Translations under genes and position numbers: made by a program
Shown here: one piece after another, positions 2,051-47,127 of the stretch
Layout of the letters: every line of letters starts with the position of its first letter
How positions within the stretch are numbered: position 1 is the stretch's first letter
Notes under the pieces: model-generated
Databases searched by the model: none
Told to the model about the DNA's origin: nothing
The model's input: only the letters and a program-made list of their open reading frames with translations
Origin: Mycolicibacterium doricum
GTDB lineage: Bacteria; Actinomycetota; Actinomycetes; Mycobacteriales; Mycobacteriaceae
Direction: 5' to 3'
Length of the DNA stretch: 64,000 bases
Assembly (NCBI RefSeq): GCF_010728155.1
Contig: NZ_AP022605.1
Location: 2,852,001 to 2,916,000 of the forward strand

Positions 2051-2887
2051 CTATCCCTTCACCGCACCGGACGTCAACCCGGCGACGATCCGTCGCTGGA
2101 AGATGAGAACAAACACGATGATCGGGATTGTGATGACCATCGCGCCCGCCGCGATCGACCCGGTCGGTTCCTCGAACTGTGAACTTCCCGTGAAGTTCGC
2201 GATCGCCACCGGCGCCGTGATCGCCCGCTGCGTCGCCGTCAGGGACAGCGCCAGCAGCAGGTCGTTCCACGCGAAGATGAAGACGAGGATGGCGGCGGTG
2301 ACGATGCCGGGCGCAGCCAGCGGGGCGATCACCTTCCGGAACGCCTGCGCCGGTGTCGCACCGTCCATTTTCGCGGCCTTCTCCAGGTCCCACGGGATCT
2401 CCCGGAAGAACGCCGACAGCGTGTAGATCGCCAGCGGCAGCGCGAAGGTGATGTACGGGATGATCAGGCCGGGCCAGGTGTCGAACAGTCCGAGCGAGCG
2501 CTCGATGTTGAACAGCGGCGTGACCAGAGAGATCTGCGGGAACATCGCGATCAGCAGTGCGACGCCGACCAGTAACTTCTTACCGGGGAACGTCAGGCGT
2601 GCCACCGCATAGGCGGCCATGCCGCCGAACACCACCGCGATCACCGTGGTGACCAGGCCGATGCCGATCGAGTTGACCAGGGCCGAACTGAAGGCGTCCC
2701 CGTTGAAGATGCCCTTGTAATTGGCGAACGTGATCTCCGTCGGGATCAGCTTGCCGTCCTTGACACTCGAGGTCGGCTTCAGCGACAGGCTCAGGATCCA
2801 CAGCACCGGGACCAACGCATAGAGCACGACGAGGACGTTGACGACGGCCCATCCGGTCCCCCGCCCGGCGGTCACCCGCTGGTTCAT
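2051..2887 (-). CDS. sugB: Trehalose ABC importer permease SugB
   Basis: A MalG-type permease with six predicted helices; the first is near residues 15-35. The cytoplasmic EAA loop is visible as [19 protein letters not shown] followed by PLAAPG, the site that docks SugC. I place the start at the ATG reading MNQRVTAG; an upstream in-frame ATG at 2911 would add eight residues (MREERRNP) encoded inside a duplicated 26-bp sequence, which looks like a by-product of that duplication. The partner permease is SugA and the substrate-binding lipoprotein LpqY, both upstream in the same operon. Confidence 0.93.
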
Positions 2888-39740: not shown

Positions 39741-41049
39741 CGGCGGTGAATGTACGCCAAGGGGCGGTGAGCCAGGTGACGCGGTGAGGCCGGCATATCG
39801 TTCGTCAAGCAAGTCAATATGGCTCATGCCGTTGCGCTCGTGTCGACGTTGCAGTCATTCGTGAGTTGGTCACCGGGACCGATGGGACCGTCGAGTCGCT
39901 GCACCGGCTCACCGTCGAGCCGCTCAGCGCACGTCTGGTAGGCGGCACGACGACCCGGTCGACGAGCCGCCGTCCTCGGGCTCCACGAACAACGCACCGT
40001 CGCAGGACCGGCGATGTGGCGATGTGGCGATGTGACGGCCGACCAGGACGAAGCCATCCAGAAGTCGGTGTTGAATCGTCACAGTGACGATCCGCTCTTC
40101 GGATTGCCCTCCACCGCATTCAGCACGCGCGACAACAGCACGCGCGACAAGGCAATGCCCCGCAACGATCCGATTGGGATCTGCTCGGCGGTGGTCCTGA
40201 TGACCCGTCTTTGGCAAGCGCCCGTCGACGCCGCGGTGTCGCCGACCTGGCACGTTCGCTACGTGCGGGTTGGATGGAGTTAACTGAGCAACTCAGCTAA
40301 CTCTCAGTTTCCGATATCCTTGACAAGGTAGCTAACCACTTCGACCATCCGAATTTGCTCATGGGCTACTTGTCGGCAACCTTCCGACTGTCGTGCGGTC
40401 CGCGGGCGCTAATGGCATCCATGAGTATCTACACCGACAGACTAGACCCGCCACTCGGTGTCCGCACTAGGGCACAAAATGTCCTGGACAGGCACCCGCG
40501 TTCGCTCGCGGAAACAAGTCGCTTAGCAGCGACACCAGGCACGAACAGCCGGCTCACCGCCGCCGGGTAGGCGCGCGGGGCAAGTCCGCACGCACGCCCG
40601 CCAGGCCGCCCCCGACGCCCCTGGAATCCGCGCCATCAGTATCCGCCGCCAATCTGCCACTAAGCGGCACTTAGCGAAGAGCTGGCGATACGCAGCCGAA
40701 GGCAACCGGTCCTTGCCGAAGCAACGAGATCGTGGGCCTTTGTGTGCACGGTGCTCGGCGTGCCATCTCGATCCCGCGCCGACAGGCTGTGCGGGCCAAT
40801 GCCCGACGGCCGAAGGCGCCACTGCTCTCCTGCGCAATCCCCCGGAATACGCAATCACAGCAATTAAATTGGGCCACGCGCAATACGTTCCGCGCTCGGT
40901 TCCAGTTCTATTCCGAAATCGCTCCCCCCATTTGCCACTTATGCTCCGCTCTGCCCGCTGCAACCGGCTCGGCTAATTCTAGTTCCCAAACCCGAGGCAA
41001 ACGATATGAAGCCATCTAAAAATGGTCATAGAAAAAGACGTAGATCGCT
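39741..41049. other. 1.3-kb gene-poor, partly AT-rich intergenic stretch
   Basis: No convincing gene is seen on either strand; the open frames are short and overlap in several frames. Local structures: a 9-bp tandem motif GATGTGGC repeated around 40014-40035; a hairpin GTCGCT-TAGC-AGCGAC at 40518-40533; an inverted CTGAG/CTCAG around 40280-40310. The right part (about 40830-41060) is clearly AT-richer than the rest of the window. In H37Rv a TetR gene and PE11/PPE17 are found in this interval; possible remnants here are too weak to call. Confidence 0.5.
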
Positions 41050-41116
41050 TTGTTACTTAGCTGCTTCTCAGGTATGTTTTGCTCCGTCGAGCTGTTCGAG
41101 ACTCTGAGGGGATGTC
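41050..41116 (+). promoter_or_regulatory. Promoter of the giant repeat gene
   Basis: TTGTTA (41050-41055), 17 bases, TATGTT (41073-41078) forms a sigma-A-type promoter with optimal spacing. About 30 bases of leader follow, ending in GAGGGG 5 bases before the ATG at 41117. The upstream DNA is AT-rich with short A-tracts. Confidence 0.55.
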
Positions 41117-44100
41117 ATGGAAGTTGCTGTTCGGTCATATCTGGCCGCCGGTGTGGCCGTCGTAGGCGCCACATCGATTGCGTTGGCTCCGGTCGAAGTA
41201 TTGCCGCCGGACTTCCAGATCCGGGGCGAGCGGATGGTCGCTGTGCTCGAAGACGTTTCCCTGTCTTCGCTGGCTGATCTGATCGCCGACGCGCAGGCCG
41301 CGTGGGCGCCGATCGGCGGTGCAGTGGACAGCGCCTCCCAAGCCGCCCAGGCGGCCATCCTCGGACTGAGCGGAGCGCTCGAGGCAGCGCTGGTCGAGGC
41401 TGCCGGGCAGGACACCGACGCGTTCCAAGCCGTTGTCGACGGGCTACTCGACGGCGGCAGCGTGCTCGCGACCGCCATCGACAACGCCATCGCCAACTTC
41501 CCGTCGCCGGAAGCCTTCGTTGACGCCATGGTGTCGGCGTTTGCATCCGTCAACCTCGACCTGGCCGACGCCATCGAGGTCGCACTCGAGGTCGCGCTGC
41601 AACTCGGCATCGGCTTGGACGCCGGCACCATCGGTGAGGCGCTCCTCAATGCCGGAACCGAACTGGCCGCCGCATTCAACACGGCACTGGCCGCCTTTCC
41701 CAACCCGCAGGAATTCGTCGCGGCCTTCGAGGCGGCCCTGGGTGATGTGATCCCGGGCTTCAACGCCGTGGCCACGGCTGCGGCCGAGGCGTTCACCGAC
41801 CTCTCGGGTCAGCTCGCCGCCACGATCGAGGCCGGTCTTGCAGCGGGTGTTACCGCCTTCGACGCGCTCGTCGAGGGACTCCTCGACTCCGGTGGTGACC
41901 TGGCGGCGGTATTCAACGCCGCTCTGGCTGCCTTCCCGAGTCCTGCTGCGTTCATCGACGCCCTGGCGGACGCGTTCGGCGCCGTCGACGTCGACCTCGG
42001 CGCTGCGCTCGACGTCGCACTCGCGGCGCTCGTCGACCTTGGCATCGACATCGACGCCGGCGCCATCGCCGAGTCGCTCATCGAAGCCGGTGCCGACCTC
42101 GCCGCCGCCTTCGGGGATGTGTTCGACGGCTTCCCCGCGCCCGGCGACTTCTTTGCCGCCTTCAACGCCGCGATCACAGGCGCCCTGCCCGGGCTCAATA
42201 CCTTCGCCCAAGCCGCCGCCGAATCGCTCACCGACCTGTCGGGTGCGCTGGCCACCGCTGTCAACGAGGGCGCCGCAGCCGGAATCGAGACGTTCGACGC
42301 CATCGTCGGCGCTCTGCAAGACACGGGCAGCGGCCTCTCCGCCGCTTTGGCTGCGGCGATCGAGGCGTTCCCGACACCCAGGGCGTTCGTCGACACGCTG
42401 GTCCAGGCGTTCGCCGCCATCGACGTCGACCTGGGTGACGCGGTTCGCGTCGCACTCGGGGCCCTCATCAACATCGCCCTTGCCCCCAACCCCGTGGGGA
42501 TCGCCGCTGCGCTCATCGAGGCCGCCCCCGAGCTGGCCGCGGTGCTGGAAGGTGAGATCGCAGGCTACCCGACCCCCGCCGAGTTCTTCTCCGCATTCAA
42601 TACCGTCATCGTGGAACTGGCTCCGGGGTTCAACGCGTTCGCCGCAGGTGCTGCCGAGGCGTTCACCGAGTTGTCAAGTGCCCTGTCGGGTGCGCTGGAG
42701 GACGGCTTCGCCGCGGGTCTGGACGCTTTCGAGACCGTGGTCGCCGGGCTGCAGGACGCCGGGAGTGGGCTCGCGGCCGCTTTGGCCGCAGCGATCGAGC
42801 CCTTCCCCACGCCCGGTGCGTTCGTCGACGCGCTGGTGTCGGCCTTCGGCGCCATCGACGTCGACCTGGGTGCGGCGCTCGACGTCGCGCTCGCGGCGCT
42901 CGTCGACCTCGGCGTGGATCTGGACCCGGGCGCGATCGCCGATGCGTTCCTCGCTGCGGGTTCCGAGTTCGCCGCACTGGTCAACGGTGTGCTCGACGAC
43001 TTCCCGACTCCCGGGGACTTCATCACGGCCTTCAATGCCGCCCTTGAGGGTGTCGTCCCGGGCTTCGACGCGGTCGCTGCGGCCACCGCCGAGGTGATCG
43101 CCGAGCTCTCAGACGCCCTGACCACGGCGCTGGAGACCCGTCTCGCCGCCGGAGTCGAGGCCTTCGACGCCGTCGTCGCCGGCTTGCTGGATGCGGGCAG
43201 CGAGCTCGCCGCCGCGTTCAACACCGCAATCGAGGCCTTCCCGACGCCCGAAGCGTTCATCGACGCCCTGGTCTCCGCCTTCGGCGCCATCGACGTCGAC
43301 CTCGCAGGCGCCATCGACGCTGCACTGGAGGTCTTCGGCGAGCTGGGCCTGAATCTGGACGCCACGGCGATCGGCGAGGCACTCGCCGCGGCAGGGGAAG
43401 AGCTGGGAGCCATCTTCGACGCCGCCCTCGAAGATTTTTCGTCGCCGGCTGAATTCGTCGCTGCCTTCGAGTCAGCTCTGGAACGTGTCATCCCCGGCCT
43501 CACCGCACTGGCAGACGCCACCGAGACCGCGATTGGGAACTTCTCGAGCGCGCTGTCGACGGCCATCGATGCCGGGCTGGCCGTAGGCGAGACGGCCTTC
43601 GAGGCGTTCATCGTCGGACTGCAGGACGCCGGCGGCCAGCTGGCCGCAGCGTTCGAAGCCGCGCTCGGCGCCTTCCCGACGCCCGAAACGTTCCTCGAGG
43701 CGCTGGTGGACGCATTCGCGGCGATCGACGTCGACCTTGGCCTCTCCCTAGAGGCCGCGCTGGAGCTGATCGTCGACCTCAACATCGACCTCGATGCCGG
43801 CGTGATCGCCGACGCGCTCCTCAACGCCGGAGCGGAGTTGGCCGCGGCCTTCGACGCGGCGTTCGAGGACTTTCCGACACCGGCGGATCTCGTCGCGGCG
43901 GTCGAACGCTCGATCACCGCGTTCGCGCCTGGCTTCAACGCAATCGCCGATGCGACCGCCGAAGCGATCGGCAACGTCTCGGCCGCGCTGACCGCCGCCA
44001 TCCAGTCGGGGATCGGCATCGGCAGCGCCGCATTCGGCGACTTCCTCCAGGGTTTGGTGGCAGGCGGTGGCACACTTGCCGCTGCGTTCGAGGCCGCGCT

Positions 44101-45193
44101 GGAGAATCTGCCGAGCCCGGCGGTCTTCATCCGCGCGCTGGTCGATGCCTCGGCTTCGCTCGGGACGGTGCTGGCCGATCTCGGTGCCTCAGTAGAGGCC
44201 GGGCTGGAAGCCGGCCTGGACCTCGGGGCGGCAGCGCTGCAAGGCTTCGCCGATGTCGGTGCGGACATCTCGGCGGCTATCGGCGCGAGCCTGGAAGGCC
44301 TGCCGACCCCGGCCGAGTTCGTCGAATCCTTCGCCGAAGCCGGTGAGCAGTTCGGTGCGGCGGCTGACGCGGTCACCCAGATCGGTGTCGACGCGGTCGA
44401 CAACGTCGCCGCAGCGACCGATGCCGTCGTCGAAGCGTTCCGGGCCACGGCGGTGTCGGCCCTGGAGAACGGCAACGACGCACTGCAGGCCATCGGAGCC
44501 GGCATCTACGCCGCGACGCAGGCGCTCGCCGAGGCCGCCAGCGACGTCAACATCGGCGGTGCCATCAGCGCCGCGATCGGTGGTGCCATCGGCGGGGGCC
44601 TGGGCGGCTTCGGTGACCTCCGTGGTGAGGCCGTCGGTGATGTCACCAAGCGCGATGAAGGCACGCCGACCGTAACGTCGGCTGAGGTCGATCCGTCAGC
44701 GGTCACGGAGATTTCGGGCACGCCGAACCAAATGGTGTCGTTGAACGCCAATTCTCCTGCCGAGGGACAAGCGACCCAGCAAACGCGAGTCATGCAGGGC
44801 CAGGTGCAACTGCGCGAGGCCCTCGACACTGCGGGCAAGCAGGTCAACGAGGGGCTCGACCAAACCCGCAAGAACCTCAAAGGGGCCGCCGACCAAACCC
44901 GTGAGAACCTCAAAGGGGCCGCCGACCAAACCCGCAAGAACCTCAAGGGGGCCGCCGACCAAACCCGTGAGAACCTCAAGGGGGCCGCCGACCAAACCCG
45001 CAAGAACCTCAAGGGGGCCGCGGACCAAACCCGTGAGAACCTCAAGGGGGCGGCGGAGCAGACCCGCAAGAACGTGGACGGGGTGCGGAAGAACGTCAAG
45101 AGCGCTGTCGGCGGCGACAAGAAGTCGAGCGATCGTTCGACGACCGAGAACAAGAAGTCCGGCGACAGCGAGCCCAGCGCGGCATCGAAGTAA
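41117..45193 (+). CDS. Giant Ala-rich repeat protein with LEA-like basic tail
   Basis: 1358 residues. (1) N-terminus RSYLAAGVAVVGATSIALAP, a hydrophobic segment typical of a set of mycobacterial hypothetical proteins, then PVEVLPPDF. (2) Seven tandem units of about 145 residues, the last degenerate, roughly residues 85-1090; each splits into two related halves of about 72 residues marked by FPTPEAFVDALVSAFGAIDV and by FPTPADFVAAFNAAL-PGFN. (3) A Gly/Ala segment (GGAISAAIGGAIGGGLGGFG, near 1146-1166). (4) Six perfect and one degenerate 11-mers (DQTRKNLKGAA / DQTRENLKGAA), residues about 1248-1324. (5) A Lys/Ser-rich tail. Body acidic, tail basic. No known domain recognised. It occupies the PE11/PPE17 position of H37Rv. 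Real coding is supported by the single long frame, promoter, ribosome site and terminator. Confidence 0.85.
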   Translation: MEVAVRSYLAAGVAVVGATSIALAPVEVLPPDFQIRGERMVAVLEDVSLSSLADLIADAQAAWAPIGGAVDSASQAAQAAILGLSGALEAALVEAAGQDTDAFQAVVDGLLDGGSVLATAIDNAIANFPSPEAFVDAMVSAFASVNLDLADAIEVALEVALQLGIGLDAGTIGEALLNAGTELAAAFNTALAAFPNPQEFVAAFEAALGDVIPGFNAVATAAAEAFTDLSGQLAATIEAGLAAGVTAFDALVEGLLDSGGDLAAVFNAALAAFPSPAAFIDALADAFGAVDVDLGAALDVALAALVDLGIDIDAGAIAESLIEAGADLAAAFGDVFDGFPAPGDFFAAFNAAITGALPGLNTFAQAAAESLTDLSGALATAVNEGAAAGIETFDAIVGALQDTGSGLSAALAAAIEAFPTPRAFVDTLVQAFAAIDVDLGDAVRVALGALINIALAPNPVGIAAALIEAAPELAAVLEGEIAGYPTPAEFFSAFNTVIVELAPGFNAFAAGAAEAFTELSSALSGALEDGFAAGLDAFETVVAGLQDAGSGLAAALAAAIEPFPTPGAFVDALVSAFGAIDVDLGAALDVALAALVDLGVDLDPGAIADAFLAAGSEFAALVNGVLDDFPTPGDFITAFNAALEGVVPGFDAVAAATAEVIAELSDALTTALETRLAAGVEAFDAVVAGLLDAGSELAAAFNTAIEAFPTPEAFIDALVSAFGAIDVDLAGAIDAALEVFGELGLNLDATAIGEALAAAGEELGAIFDAALEDFSSPAEFVAAFESALERVIPGLTALADATETAIGNFSSALSTAIDAGLAVGETAFEAFIVGLQDAGGQLAAAFEAALGAFPTPETFLEALVDAFAAIDVDLGLSLEAALELIVDLNIDLDAGVIADALLNAGAELAAAFDAAFEDFPTPADLVAAVERSITAFAPGFNAIADATAEAIGNVSAALTAAIQSGIGIGSAAFGDFLQGLVAGGGTLAAAFEAALENLPSPAVFIRALVDASASLGTVLADLGASVEAGLEAGLDLGAAALQGFADVGADISAAIGASLEGLPTPAEFVESFAEAGEQFGAAADAVTQIGVDAVDNVAAATDAVVEAFRATAVSALENGNDALQAIGAGIYAATQALAEAASDVNIGGAISAAIGGAIGGGLGGFGDLRGEAVGDVTKRDEGTPTVTSAEVDPSAVTEISGTPNQMVSLNANSPAEGQATQQTRVMQGQVQLREALDTAGKQVNEGLDQTRKNLKGAADQTRENLKGAADQTRKNLKGAADQTRENLKGAADQTRKNLKGAADQTRENLKGAAEQTRKNVDGVRKNVKSAVGGDKKSSDRSTTENKKSGDSEPSAASK
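44858..45088 (+). repeat. 33-bp tandem repeat encoding 11-residue units
   Basis: Seven units of 33 bp: units start at 44858, 44891, 44924, 44957, 44990, 45023 and 45056, the last degenerate. Lys and Glu alternate at one position (CGCAAG versus CGTGAG), making a 66-bp higher-order period. DNA is nearly identical between units, including synonymous sites, which implies recent expansion or conversion. Confidence 0.95.
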
Positions 45194-45204
45194 TCACCAC
45201 GCAG

Positions 45205-45235
45205 GCGGCCCCGGACCTCGGTCCGGGGCCGCTTT
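45205..45235. terminator. Strong hairpin terminator
   Basis: A 12-bp GC stem GCGGCCCCGGAC-CTCG-GTCCGGGGCCGC (45205-45232) followed by TTT lies between the ends of the convergent giant gene and lpqW, and can serve both. Confidence 0.85.
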
Positions 45236-45249
45236 GCGCTGCCGTCCCG

Positions 45250-47127
45250 TCACTGCGGGGATTTCACCCAGCTGCCGGCGTCACCGACGATGCCGACGGG
45301 CACGGCACCCGAGAGGGTCACGTTGCGCACGCTCGGCCCCGCCGCGACGATCGTGGTGTCCTGCAGGATCGGCAACACCGTCCACATGTTCCACAGCCGT
45401 GGCTCGACGGCGTCGATGACCTCGGCGATCGGCTCTGTGCCGTCGAGGGCGGCGTCGATCTTCGGCTGGATGCCGCGGTCACACACACCGGTGATGTTGC
45501 TCGGCGCCTGCACCAGCGCATCGGATTCCGGTGCGGGCCTCGGCGTGGTGGTAGGTGTGGCGGTCGGCGTGGTGGTAGGTGTGGCGGCAGGTGGTGTGGG
45601 TGCGGACTGTGATGGCCGGGGCACAGATGGGGCGGTCACGACGGGTGTCGCCTCCAGCGCGGGACAGCCGTAGCGCGAGGCCAGCGCCGTCGCCAGGTCT
45701 CCGCCGGCCCGATGCCAGCCCACCACGGCGTCGACCCGGCTCTCGGTCAGCGCCTCGCCGTAGAGCGTGACCGGATCGAGCGCCAGCACCGACGCCTCGA
45801 TGCCGACGTTGCGGAGCTGATCGGCGGCGGTGTTGGCCACTGCGACCGACGTCGGATCGTTGGCGGCCACCCCGAGCACCAGTGTCAGCGGCACACCGTC
45901 TTTCGAGATCCGCCCGCGGCTGTGGTCCGGTGCCGGTGCACCCGGCGCGGCCGGCGGCGCATCGCCCACCGGTGCCGTCTGATAGCCCGCGTCGGCCAGC
46001 AGTTCCAGAGCCGCCTCGGTGCCCAGCGCGCGCGGCGCCGTCGGCACGTATCCGGGATCGGACGGCGAGCGTACCTGCGCCTGGGCCAGCGTGACCGTGT
46101 TGTCGTCACCGGCACCCACCGAGGCCAGCAAGTCGACGTCGAGCAGGCCGAGGATCGCCCGGCGCACGGACGGATCGGCCAGTTTGGGGAGCTGGCCGCG
46201 CAACGTCACCTGCATGACCCGCGGCGTCACGATCCGCGCCGTCCGAACATCGGGGATGGCGCTGAGTTGAGCGAACGTCGCTGCGCCGCCGTGCACCTGG
46301 GCGACCTGGGTGTCACCGTTGCGGATCGAGTCCGCCAGCGCTGCGGGCGCCCCACCCCGGCGGAACAGCACGAGGTCGGGTTTGGCCGGGGCACTCCAGT
46401 ACCGGTCGTTGCGGGCCAGCAGAATCTCGTCACGCTGCGGATCGATGCTCTCCACCCGGAACTGCCCGCCGGTCACCGGCATCGCTTCGGCCAGCCCGGC
46501 GCCGAAGCCGCCCGGCACGTCCTTGACGATGTGCGCTGGCAGGATGTTGTTGAACAACTCCCGCCACGCGGGGTACGGCTGGGAGAAGGTGACGACGACC
46601 TGCTTGGCACCCTCGACGGACTGCACGCCGGTGATGAGGTCGTAACCAGCGGGATCGACGACGCCGGGCTGGCTGACCATCTGGCGCCACAGATACCAGT
46701 AGTCGTCGGCGCCGATGGGCGCGTTGTCGGTCCACTGTGCCTCGGGCCGGATGTTGTAGGTGACGGTGAACGGGTTCTCGTTGGTCACCTCGGCCGAATC
46801 CAGCAGCGTCGGGTCGAGCTCCCACCGCGACCCGGTCGGCGTGTCGGGATCAGGGATCGGCCGGAACGAACTCGGGAGCACCAGTGCGGCGATAGCGGCG
46901 TTGACCGGCGACTGATCCGACAGCAGATGTGGGTTGAATCCGGGACCGATCGAATCGATGGCCACGATGATCTGGGTCGCCTTGCGCGCCGGCGGCGGGG
47001 TGGTCTCCGGCGTCTCGGTGCTCTGCGGCGCCGGCGGCGGGCTCACGGTGCAACCACCCAGCAGCAGTGCGGTGGCGGAGAGGCACACCCCCAGCGTCAC
47101 ACGACGACGGCGGGGAGAGGTCAGCAC
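45250..47127 (-). CDS. lpqW: Lipoprotein LpqW, ABC solute-binding fold
   Basis: 625 residues from GTG 47127 ([20 protein letters not shown]) with lipobox LLLGGC, Cys about residue 26; the longer frame upstream overlaps typA and is rejected. The body resembles peptide-binding proteins of ABC importers ([40 protein letters not shown]), with a long Pro/Thr-rich linker near residues 520-560. LpqW controls the split of PIM precursors between polar PIMs and LM/LAM, acting with PimE. Position of Rv1166; 20 bases after typA. Confidence 0.9.

Follow-up and report, generated by a model that had tools for sequence, protein, structure and literature searches.

A mycobacterial protein of six 145-residue double repeats behind a GjpA-type leader: a candidate helical scaffold of the cell envelope

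We describe a gene found in a 64,000-nucleotide stretch of DNA from Mycolicibacterium doricum (contig NZ_AP022605.1, positions 2,852,001 to 2,916,000; hereafter, the window), whose source genome is a single 4.03-Mb contig. The gene encodes a 1,358-residue protein composed of an N-terminal leader with the motif RSYL, a body of long repeats and a basic tail. Its neighbours, all on the minus strand, are genes that we take to be fbiC, a small gene and mshB on one side, and an lpqW-like gene and typA on the other, these names being presumed from gene order and Pfam domains. The features of the locus are given below in window positions; the six exact repeat units were covered by the autocorrelation, profile and identity analyses.

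41050..41078, plus strand: promoter-like block with a -35-like TTGTTA (41050-41055), a 17-nt spacer and a -10-like TATGTT (41073-41078); putative promoter
41055-41078, plus strand: 24-nt pattern with a period-11 direct repeat (ACTTAG.../TCTCAGG), within the promoter-like block
41106..41111, plus strand: Shine-Dalgarno-like GAGGGG, seen in the sequence, its last base 5 nt ahead of the ATG
41117-45193, plus strand: open reading frame of the repeat protein, 1,358 codons, uninterrupted, ATG start
41117..41203, plus strand: RSYL leader, residues 1-29 (R6 S7 Y8 L9 ... G12 A14 A18 ... P25), predicted export signal or anchor
41204..41497, plus strand: N-terminal region, residues 30-127, with a DVSLSSL-like motif, conserved in both repeat lineages
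41498..41932, plus strand: repeat unit 1 (66 + 79), residues 128-272
41933..42367, plus strand: repeat unit 2, residues 273-417
42368..42802, plus strand: repeat unit 3, residues 418-562
42803..43237, plus strand: repeat unit 4, residues 563-707
43238..43672, plus strand: repeat unit 5, residues 708-852
43673..44107, plus strand: repeat unit 6, residues 853-997
44108..44521, plus strand: diverged seventh unit, residues 998-1135, first half of 64 residues, from motif spacing
44522..44806, plus strand: Gly-rich segment and fast-evolving linker, residues 1136-1230
44807..45190, plus strand: basic C-terminal tail, residues 1231-1358, with 11-residue amphipathic repeats and a 33-bp DNA array (44857-45073)
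45198..45241, plus strand: strong hairpin between the stop of the repeat gene and the convergent lpqW-like gene (-38.2 kcal/mol, z -4.8)

Residues 128-997 are made up of six units of exactly 145 residues, each with a 66-residue and a 79-residue half and with no insertions or deletions (indels), and a diverged seventh unit begins at residue 998. Motifs resembling F-P-x-P recur from residue 128 (then 194, 273, 339 ...) through residue 1062, their spacing alternating between 66 and 79 without a break up to the final spacing of 64. The repeat is far above chance: BLOSUM autocorrelation gave z = 38.7 at lag 145 and 33.1 at lag 290 against 100 shuffles, and the mean identity among unit positions within one protein is 57-65%. 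When the profiles of the two halves were compared with hhalign, they matched with a probability of 97.3% (E 2e-11; 30 column-shuffled controls reached at most 2.5%), the longer half holding one 14-residue insertion relative to the shorter; this profile match indicates that both halves derive from one module. A preliminary description of the gene, made from the letters alone, had rightly read a single uninterrupted frame and an acidic, Ala-rich body with a basic tail (27% Ala; 143 acidic residues and no Lys in residues 1-997; 29 K/R vs 19 D/E in residues 1221-1358). Its seven units of about 145 residues, each of two related halves of about 72, survive in part: six are exact and the halves are related, but the seventh has diverged, the halves differ in length, and the two half peptides quoted were composites, neither string being present exactly. 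It contained neither the promoter-like block, the leader class and the fixed length described below, nor a second repeat lineage with a 136-residue unit.

This second lineage (group B, as opposed to group A with the window protein) has a unit of 61 + 75 = 136 residues and the same 14-residue asymmetry between its halves (probability 98.3%; shuffled controls at most 9.1%), and because of that shared asymmetry the double module probably predates the split of the two lineages. In one relative, P0015, the frame appears to shift part-way through the repeat array, so that this array is probably broken. Named relatives belong to Mycobacterium or Mycolicibacterium, besides metagenome entries and one 'uncultured actinobacterium' bin matching in the leader only; each protein search scored the 7,998 candidates with the most shared words. 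A long repeat gene was present in at least 22 of 248 genus genomes (best E < 1e-50), the counts being lower bounds with two candidates scored per genome.

The repeat protein is under purifying selection, with a ratio of nonsynonymous to synonymous substitution rates (dN/dS) of 0.26-0.28 for the whole protein against six orthologues. By part, dN/dS was lowest in the leader (0.04-0.11), followed by the units (0.23-0.25) and the tail (0.31-0.48), and highest in the linker (residues 1131-1230; 0.50-0.85). Unit number and unit length are frozen among the seven proteins of the window's clade: all 42 of their units had their best match in the same-numbered unit of another species, and over residues 128-997 the six orthologue comparisons contained a single 2-residue deletion, with 67-97 gap residues per comparison in residues 998-1358. 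Group B arrays appear to be still turning over, because for 20 of 33 units the nearest relative lies within the same protein; identity between units of one protein reaches 97% there.

The leader places the repeat protein, by its sequence, in a class of proteins that is nearly restricted to the genus. Leader matches occurred in 25 of 61 genomes, all among the 37 of the same genus and in none of the 24 outside it, and an order-wide sample gave 26 of 298 genomes, namely 24 of the same genus and two with weak matches elsewhere (E 3e-4 to 4e-4); the repeat body was found in four of these 298, all of the same genus. The largest number in one genome was 23 (G021, 5.1 Mb), and the window's genome has one copy. 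All 60 of the leader proteins collected carry P25 with A, S or T directly before it, at position 24; the patterns by which the 60 were selected fixed R6, Y8, G12 and A14 and left P25 free, and A18, also found in 60 of 60, belonged to one of the two scan patterns. Since an invariant proline directly after an A-x-[AST]-like site disfavours cleavage by signal peptidase, the leader may remain uncleaved. Over 40 codons its dN was 0.023 in five of the six orthologue pairs and 0.036 in the sixth, compared with 0.110-0.183 in the units; the signal peptide encoded next door by the lpqW-like gene has a dN roughly nine times as high (0.20-0.22 in four pairs, L031-L034 being the four of the six orthologues with a lipobox pattern).

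With the leader removed, phmmer comparison (E < 1e-5, 30% coverage) separated the bodies into three clusters that had no link to one another, with 40, 12 and 8 members. The NCBIfam model NF033942, 'outer membrane porin GjpA', matched 10 of 13 short leader proteins (E <= 0.01), with scores above its cut-off in L024, L026 and L083; no match was found for the other three (L023, L078 and L089), nor for the window protein (E <= 1) or the repeat proteins of L031, L038 and L045 (E <= 0.1). By these comparisons the leader precedes three bodies without detectable similarity, mostly of the GjpA class. The third body family (L079:5100, L082:6723, L084:2876, L087:2357, L089:3908, L090:5403, L091:5375, L092:2887) showed no phmmer link to the GjpA-like cluster, and its L089 member has no NCBIfam match.

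The promoter-like block upstream of the gene recurs in the family. Ahead of repeat genes its consensus is YTTGnyTACTTAGnnnnTTCTCAGGTAnnTT, with small variations; family-wide, it comprises a -35-like TTG hexamer, a spacer of 17-18 nt carrying the period-11 direct repeat, and a TANNTT -10, and it is present at group A and at group B repeat genes, which occupy two separate loci. Across 246 genus genomes the pattern ACTYAGNNNNNTCTCAGGTANNTT had 25 matches, distributed over 23 genomes, and its reversed form had none. All 25 matches directly precede genes for exported-type proteins, 23 of them with RSxL leaders: 19 are repeat genes, in four others the leader is of the RSYL, RSHL or RSQL form, and in two cases the gene is a further one whose start is signal-like. 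An exact match to ACTYAGNNNNNTCTCAGGTANNTT was absent from G003, G008 and G167, three of the 22 genomes with a repeat gene. In a search of 60 genomes a looser pattern matched exactly at 16 sites, spread over 10 genomes, and at none when reversed; by our own reading all 16 genes behind these sites begin with a leader-type hydrophobic segment, and seven are repeat genes. The element marks a subset of the leader class, because all 12 repeat genes examined carry it (11 exactly, one with one mismatch), yet only five of 48 short leader genes do so at up to two mismatches; at that tolerance 3,000 stretches drawn at random from these loci gave 10 matches, some of which are possibly true sites. Within the window's genome the long form of the element matches once at up to three mismatches, and looser forms performed no better than the control. 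The architecture suggests that the element is a promoter; a consensus scan flagged neither a promoter at the repeat gene nor the hairpin behind it.

The direct-repeat element was also seen upstream of leader-type genes in L078, L128, L135, L139, L140 and L143-L150. In L119 and L120 (1501-1524, minus strand) the gene behind it encodes an exported-type protein of another kind, whose start is long, basic and signal-like. The lpqW-mshB interval of L113, whose genome has a group B repeat gene elsewhere, holds another leader-like gene with the same element (about 2079-2098, minus strand).

The repeat gene is separated from mshB by a 1.3-kb gap (39828-41116), of which relatives conserve patches only and in which the GC content falls to 0.51 near 41000; the GAGGGG is unchanged in all eight aligned upstream regions. 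The hairpin downstream, which has no T-run, would act as a terminator. Group A repeat genes lie between mshB and lpqW, on the opposite strand, in eight of nine fetched loci, the ninth (L036) being one where mshB falls beyond the end of the fetched stretch. Of 20 genomes without a repeat gene there, whose intervals were hand-picked from 40 genomes (mshB was not found in one, L096), five have another RSYL gene in the lpqW-mshB interval, one of these being a 114-residue frame, and five have one in the interval preceding fbiC; the lpqW-mshB-fbiC region is a hot spot for RSYL leader genes. Some loci bear two identifiers (L031 = L059, L036 = L048, L035 = L065, L043 = L056, L044 = L051, L045 = L061, L046 = L050, L047 = L060), which were not mixed in the locus counts on tails, half-module profiles, dN/dS, units, leaders and body clusters. 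Behind the basic-tailed repeat gene of some relatives lies a further leader gene, which belongs to the GjpA-like cluster and encodes a strongly acidic tail (L049:14445-15692, L059:11159, L048:14652 and L065:14516); the window has no space for such a gene. The lpqW-like gene contains 24-bp GT-rich tandem repeats (45540-45599) corresponding to a Thr/Pro/Ala-rich insert.

The body is predicted to be helical and amphipathic. Its hydrophobicity periodicity peaks at 99 degrees in group A units (96 in the 66-residue half alone) and at 101 in group B. AlphaFold2 returned all-helical models both for three units (38 alignment rows, from 38 of 62 three-unit segments; mean predicted local distance difference test score, pLDDT, 35.1) and for residues 1-418 (24 rows; mean pLDDT 53.9), the latter with four helices per half and a longer second helix in the 79-residue half (H212-242 vs H147-162). 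Foldseek found no match in the PDB at E <= 1e-3 for the predicted model. The grand average of hydropathy (GRAVY) of the body is 0.84, and its hydrophobic residues are distributed more evenly than in shuffles: the maximal 19-residue mean is 1.79 vs 2.49 +/- 0.22 in 200 shuffles. Because of this periodicity, the low-confidence models, the empty Foldseek search and the even hydrophobicity, we call the body helical and amphipathic and refrain from the narrower term solenoid; the helical half of the preliminary proposal of a helical solenoid stands as a prediction.

No Pfam or NCBIfam model matched the window protein at cut-off, so that the 145-residue double repeat is unrecognised by either library, in line with the absence of a recognisable family stated earlier. 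The whole-protein Pfam scan listed seven families at E <= 1, and neither PE nor ARM, HEAT, TPR or a similar alpha-solenoid family was among them; a PE/PPE or solenoid match had been named beforehand as evidence to the contrary. The group B relative L044 passes the cut-off of PF04513 (baculovirus PEP C-terminus) by 3 bits (41.2 bits vs 38, E 2.2e-10, residues 880-985). Other scores for this model were 25.7 in L045, 14.7 in L031 (in the tail) and 14.9 in the window protein; our scan of relatives covered eight proteins, four of them repeat relatives, and precomputed matches exist for P0002, P0009, P0014 and P0016. The similarity likely reflects a common helical, Ala-rich make-up. Two database labels of relatives did not pass the tests applied to the window protein. 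UniRef calls P0008 and P0009 PE-PGRS, and the window protein has no PE match and few Gly triplets (3 GGA and 12 GGx over its full length, 4 of the GGx within residues 128-997). A JGI record labels P0014 a trimeric autotransporter adhesin, and no C-terminal anchor domain is among the Pfam matches of the window protein, which is the protein that this test covers.

From these observations we tentatively favour, at somewhat less than even confidence, an envelope-anchored helical scaffold or spacer of fixed length, made of six paired modules behind a GjpA-type leader, with the basic tail docked. The GjpA-type leader makes export and retention in the envelope likely: it would direct the protein to the Sec pathway and, if retained, would hold it in the cell envelope, in the mycomembrane or the periplasm. 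The exported or envelope-anchored location of the preliminary description is thereby kept as a prediction, the leader being common to GjpA-annotated proteins and more conserved than the neighbouring signal peptide. Six equal 145-residue modules, all-helical by prediction, could set the length of the scaffold, and the tail, basic, amphipathic and apolipoprotein-like, would likely dock on anionic envelope lipid or polysaccharide. In the tail the 33-bp array comprises 6.6 copies, and a basic amphipathic 18-mer occurs within the last 130 residues of 26 of 48 short leader proteins and in none of their 48 bodies.

Several findings weigh against this scaffold. The basic amphipathic 18-mer was present in just five of 16 repeat proteins (those of the window and L033-L036), the tail is acidic in nine of the 48 short leader proteins, and the tail type differs by lineage (11-mers, K/S/D-rich, LPAPPK). 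Because group B unit number varies from 3 to 7 exact units and three group A relatives carry four units, constant length is a property of the window's clade and no universal rule of the family. Alanine accounts for much of the high GRAVY. The low AlphaFold2 confidence makes a rod, a bundle and surface-bound helices indistinguishable, and the recurrent weak PF04513 match, above cut-off in L044, has no explanation within this reading.

An unlikely but serious alternative is a mycomembrane channel or membrane-embedded helical protein, in which the amphipathic modules would oligomerise in or along the outer membrane and would not span a gap. The leader is common to NF033942 proteins, annotated as an outer membrane porin, and the body GRAVY of all 16 family members lies at 0.81-1.05, each protein having 3-12 19-residue windows that reach 1.6 (leader counted); high hydrophobicity without dominant transmembrane stretches would fit passage across the inner membrane and settling further out. 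However, the GjpA model gave no match to the repeat body, and the 143 acidic residues, with no lysine in residues 1-997, fit an embedded body poorly. It is improbable that the protein is a surface-displayed or shed adhesin fibre whose repeats give reach and whose tail binds partner cells or substrates. Its body is long and repetitive, P0014 bears the adhesin label, and the variable unit number and up to near-identical units of group B are features seen in many adhesins, but neither Pfam nor NCBIfam listed a YadA-type or other adhesin model for the window protein, and its clade keeps the unit number frozen.

Quite improbable as well is an apolipoprotein-like lipid binder or carrier, with modules and 11-mer tail coating envelope lipids. 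The tail (residues 1230-1329) matches PF01442 with 37 bits (E 3.6e-9) and the tail also matches PF07464 with 21.6 bits; its two PDB matches at E <= 1 are both apolipoprotein A-IV chains (E 0.0074 and 0.023), matches of the body being weak (best E 0.0028), and its periodicity was strongest at 98.2 degrees among four angles tried. Against this, both Pfam matches lie below their cut-offs (90 and 36.3 bits) and in the tail only, the body is acidic with a period of 145 rather than 11 or 22, and the 11-mers are absent from two of the three tail types. A passive product of tandem duplication without a selected role, for which the sparse distribution could speak, is disfavoured to the point of being very improbable by the dN/dS of the whole protein, the positional unit identity with almost no indels, and an upstream block kept at two loci.

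To our knowledge, the route by which proteins reach the mycobacterial outer membrane is unsettled. We consider it a doubtful, though attractive, extension of the scaffold reading that the RSYL leader and the direct-repeat promoter constitute a dedicated co-regulated route for mycomembrane sorting and anchoring, onto which unrelated bodies have been swapped, the 145-residue array being its set-length helical spacer between envelope layers. A slow-evolving leader before three dissimilar bodies, part of them with a promoter-like element, offers a sequence-level handle on outer-membrane targeting, and the contrast between a clade with constant unit number and one in which it varies makes a structural role testable. 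Should the scaffold reading be true, the protein would be a sign of a so far unrecognised class of envelope proteins under joint regulation.

Mycobacteria possess a mycomembrane with predicted outer-membrane proteins, according to an excerpt of PMC4257090. Among known systems, the baculovirus PEP C-terminus shows a weak recurring similarity, with the window protein under the cut-off. PE_PGRS proteins, defined in an excerpt of PMC11939664 by an N-terminal PE domain and Gly-rich GGA-GGX repeats, are likewise mycobacterial, repetitive and Ala/Gly-containing, but are built of Gly triplets where the window protein has long helical repeats. Apolipoproteins A1/A4/E (PF01442) share the 11-residue amphipathic repeats, a similarity confined to the tail and at 37 vs 90 bits. 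The group B proteins (e.g. L051-L056), a sister lineage for which we found no description, have the same leader, pair of half-modules, 14-residue asymmetry and upstream block, and differ in their 61 + 75 unit, 3-7 exact units, LPAPPK tail and locus. GjpA-type proteins (NF033942) are about one third as long as the repeat protein, whose 145-residue repeats and body have no detectable relation to them; what the two have in common is the RSYL leader, the lpqW-mshB-fbiC hot spot and, in about half of the short leader proteins (26 of 48), a basic amphipathic C-terminal segment.

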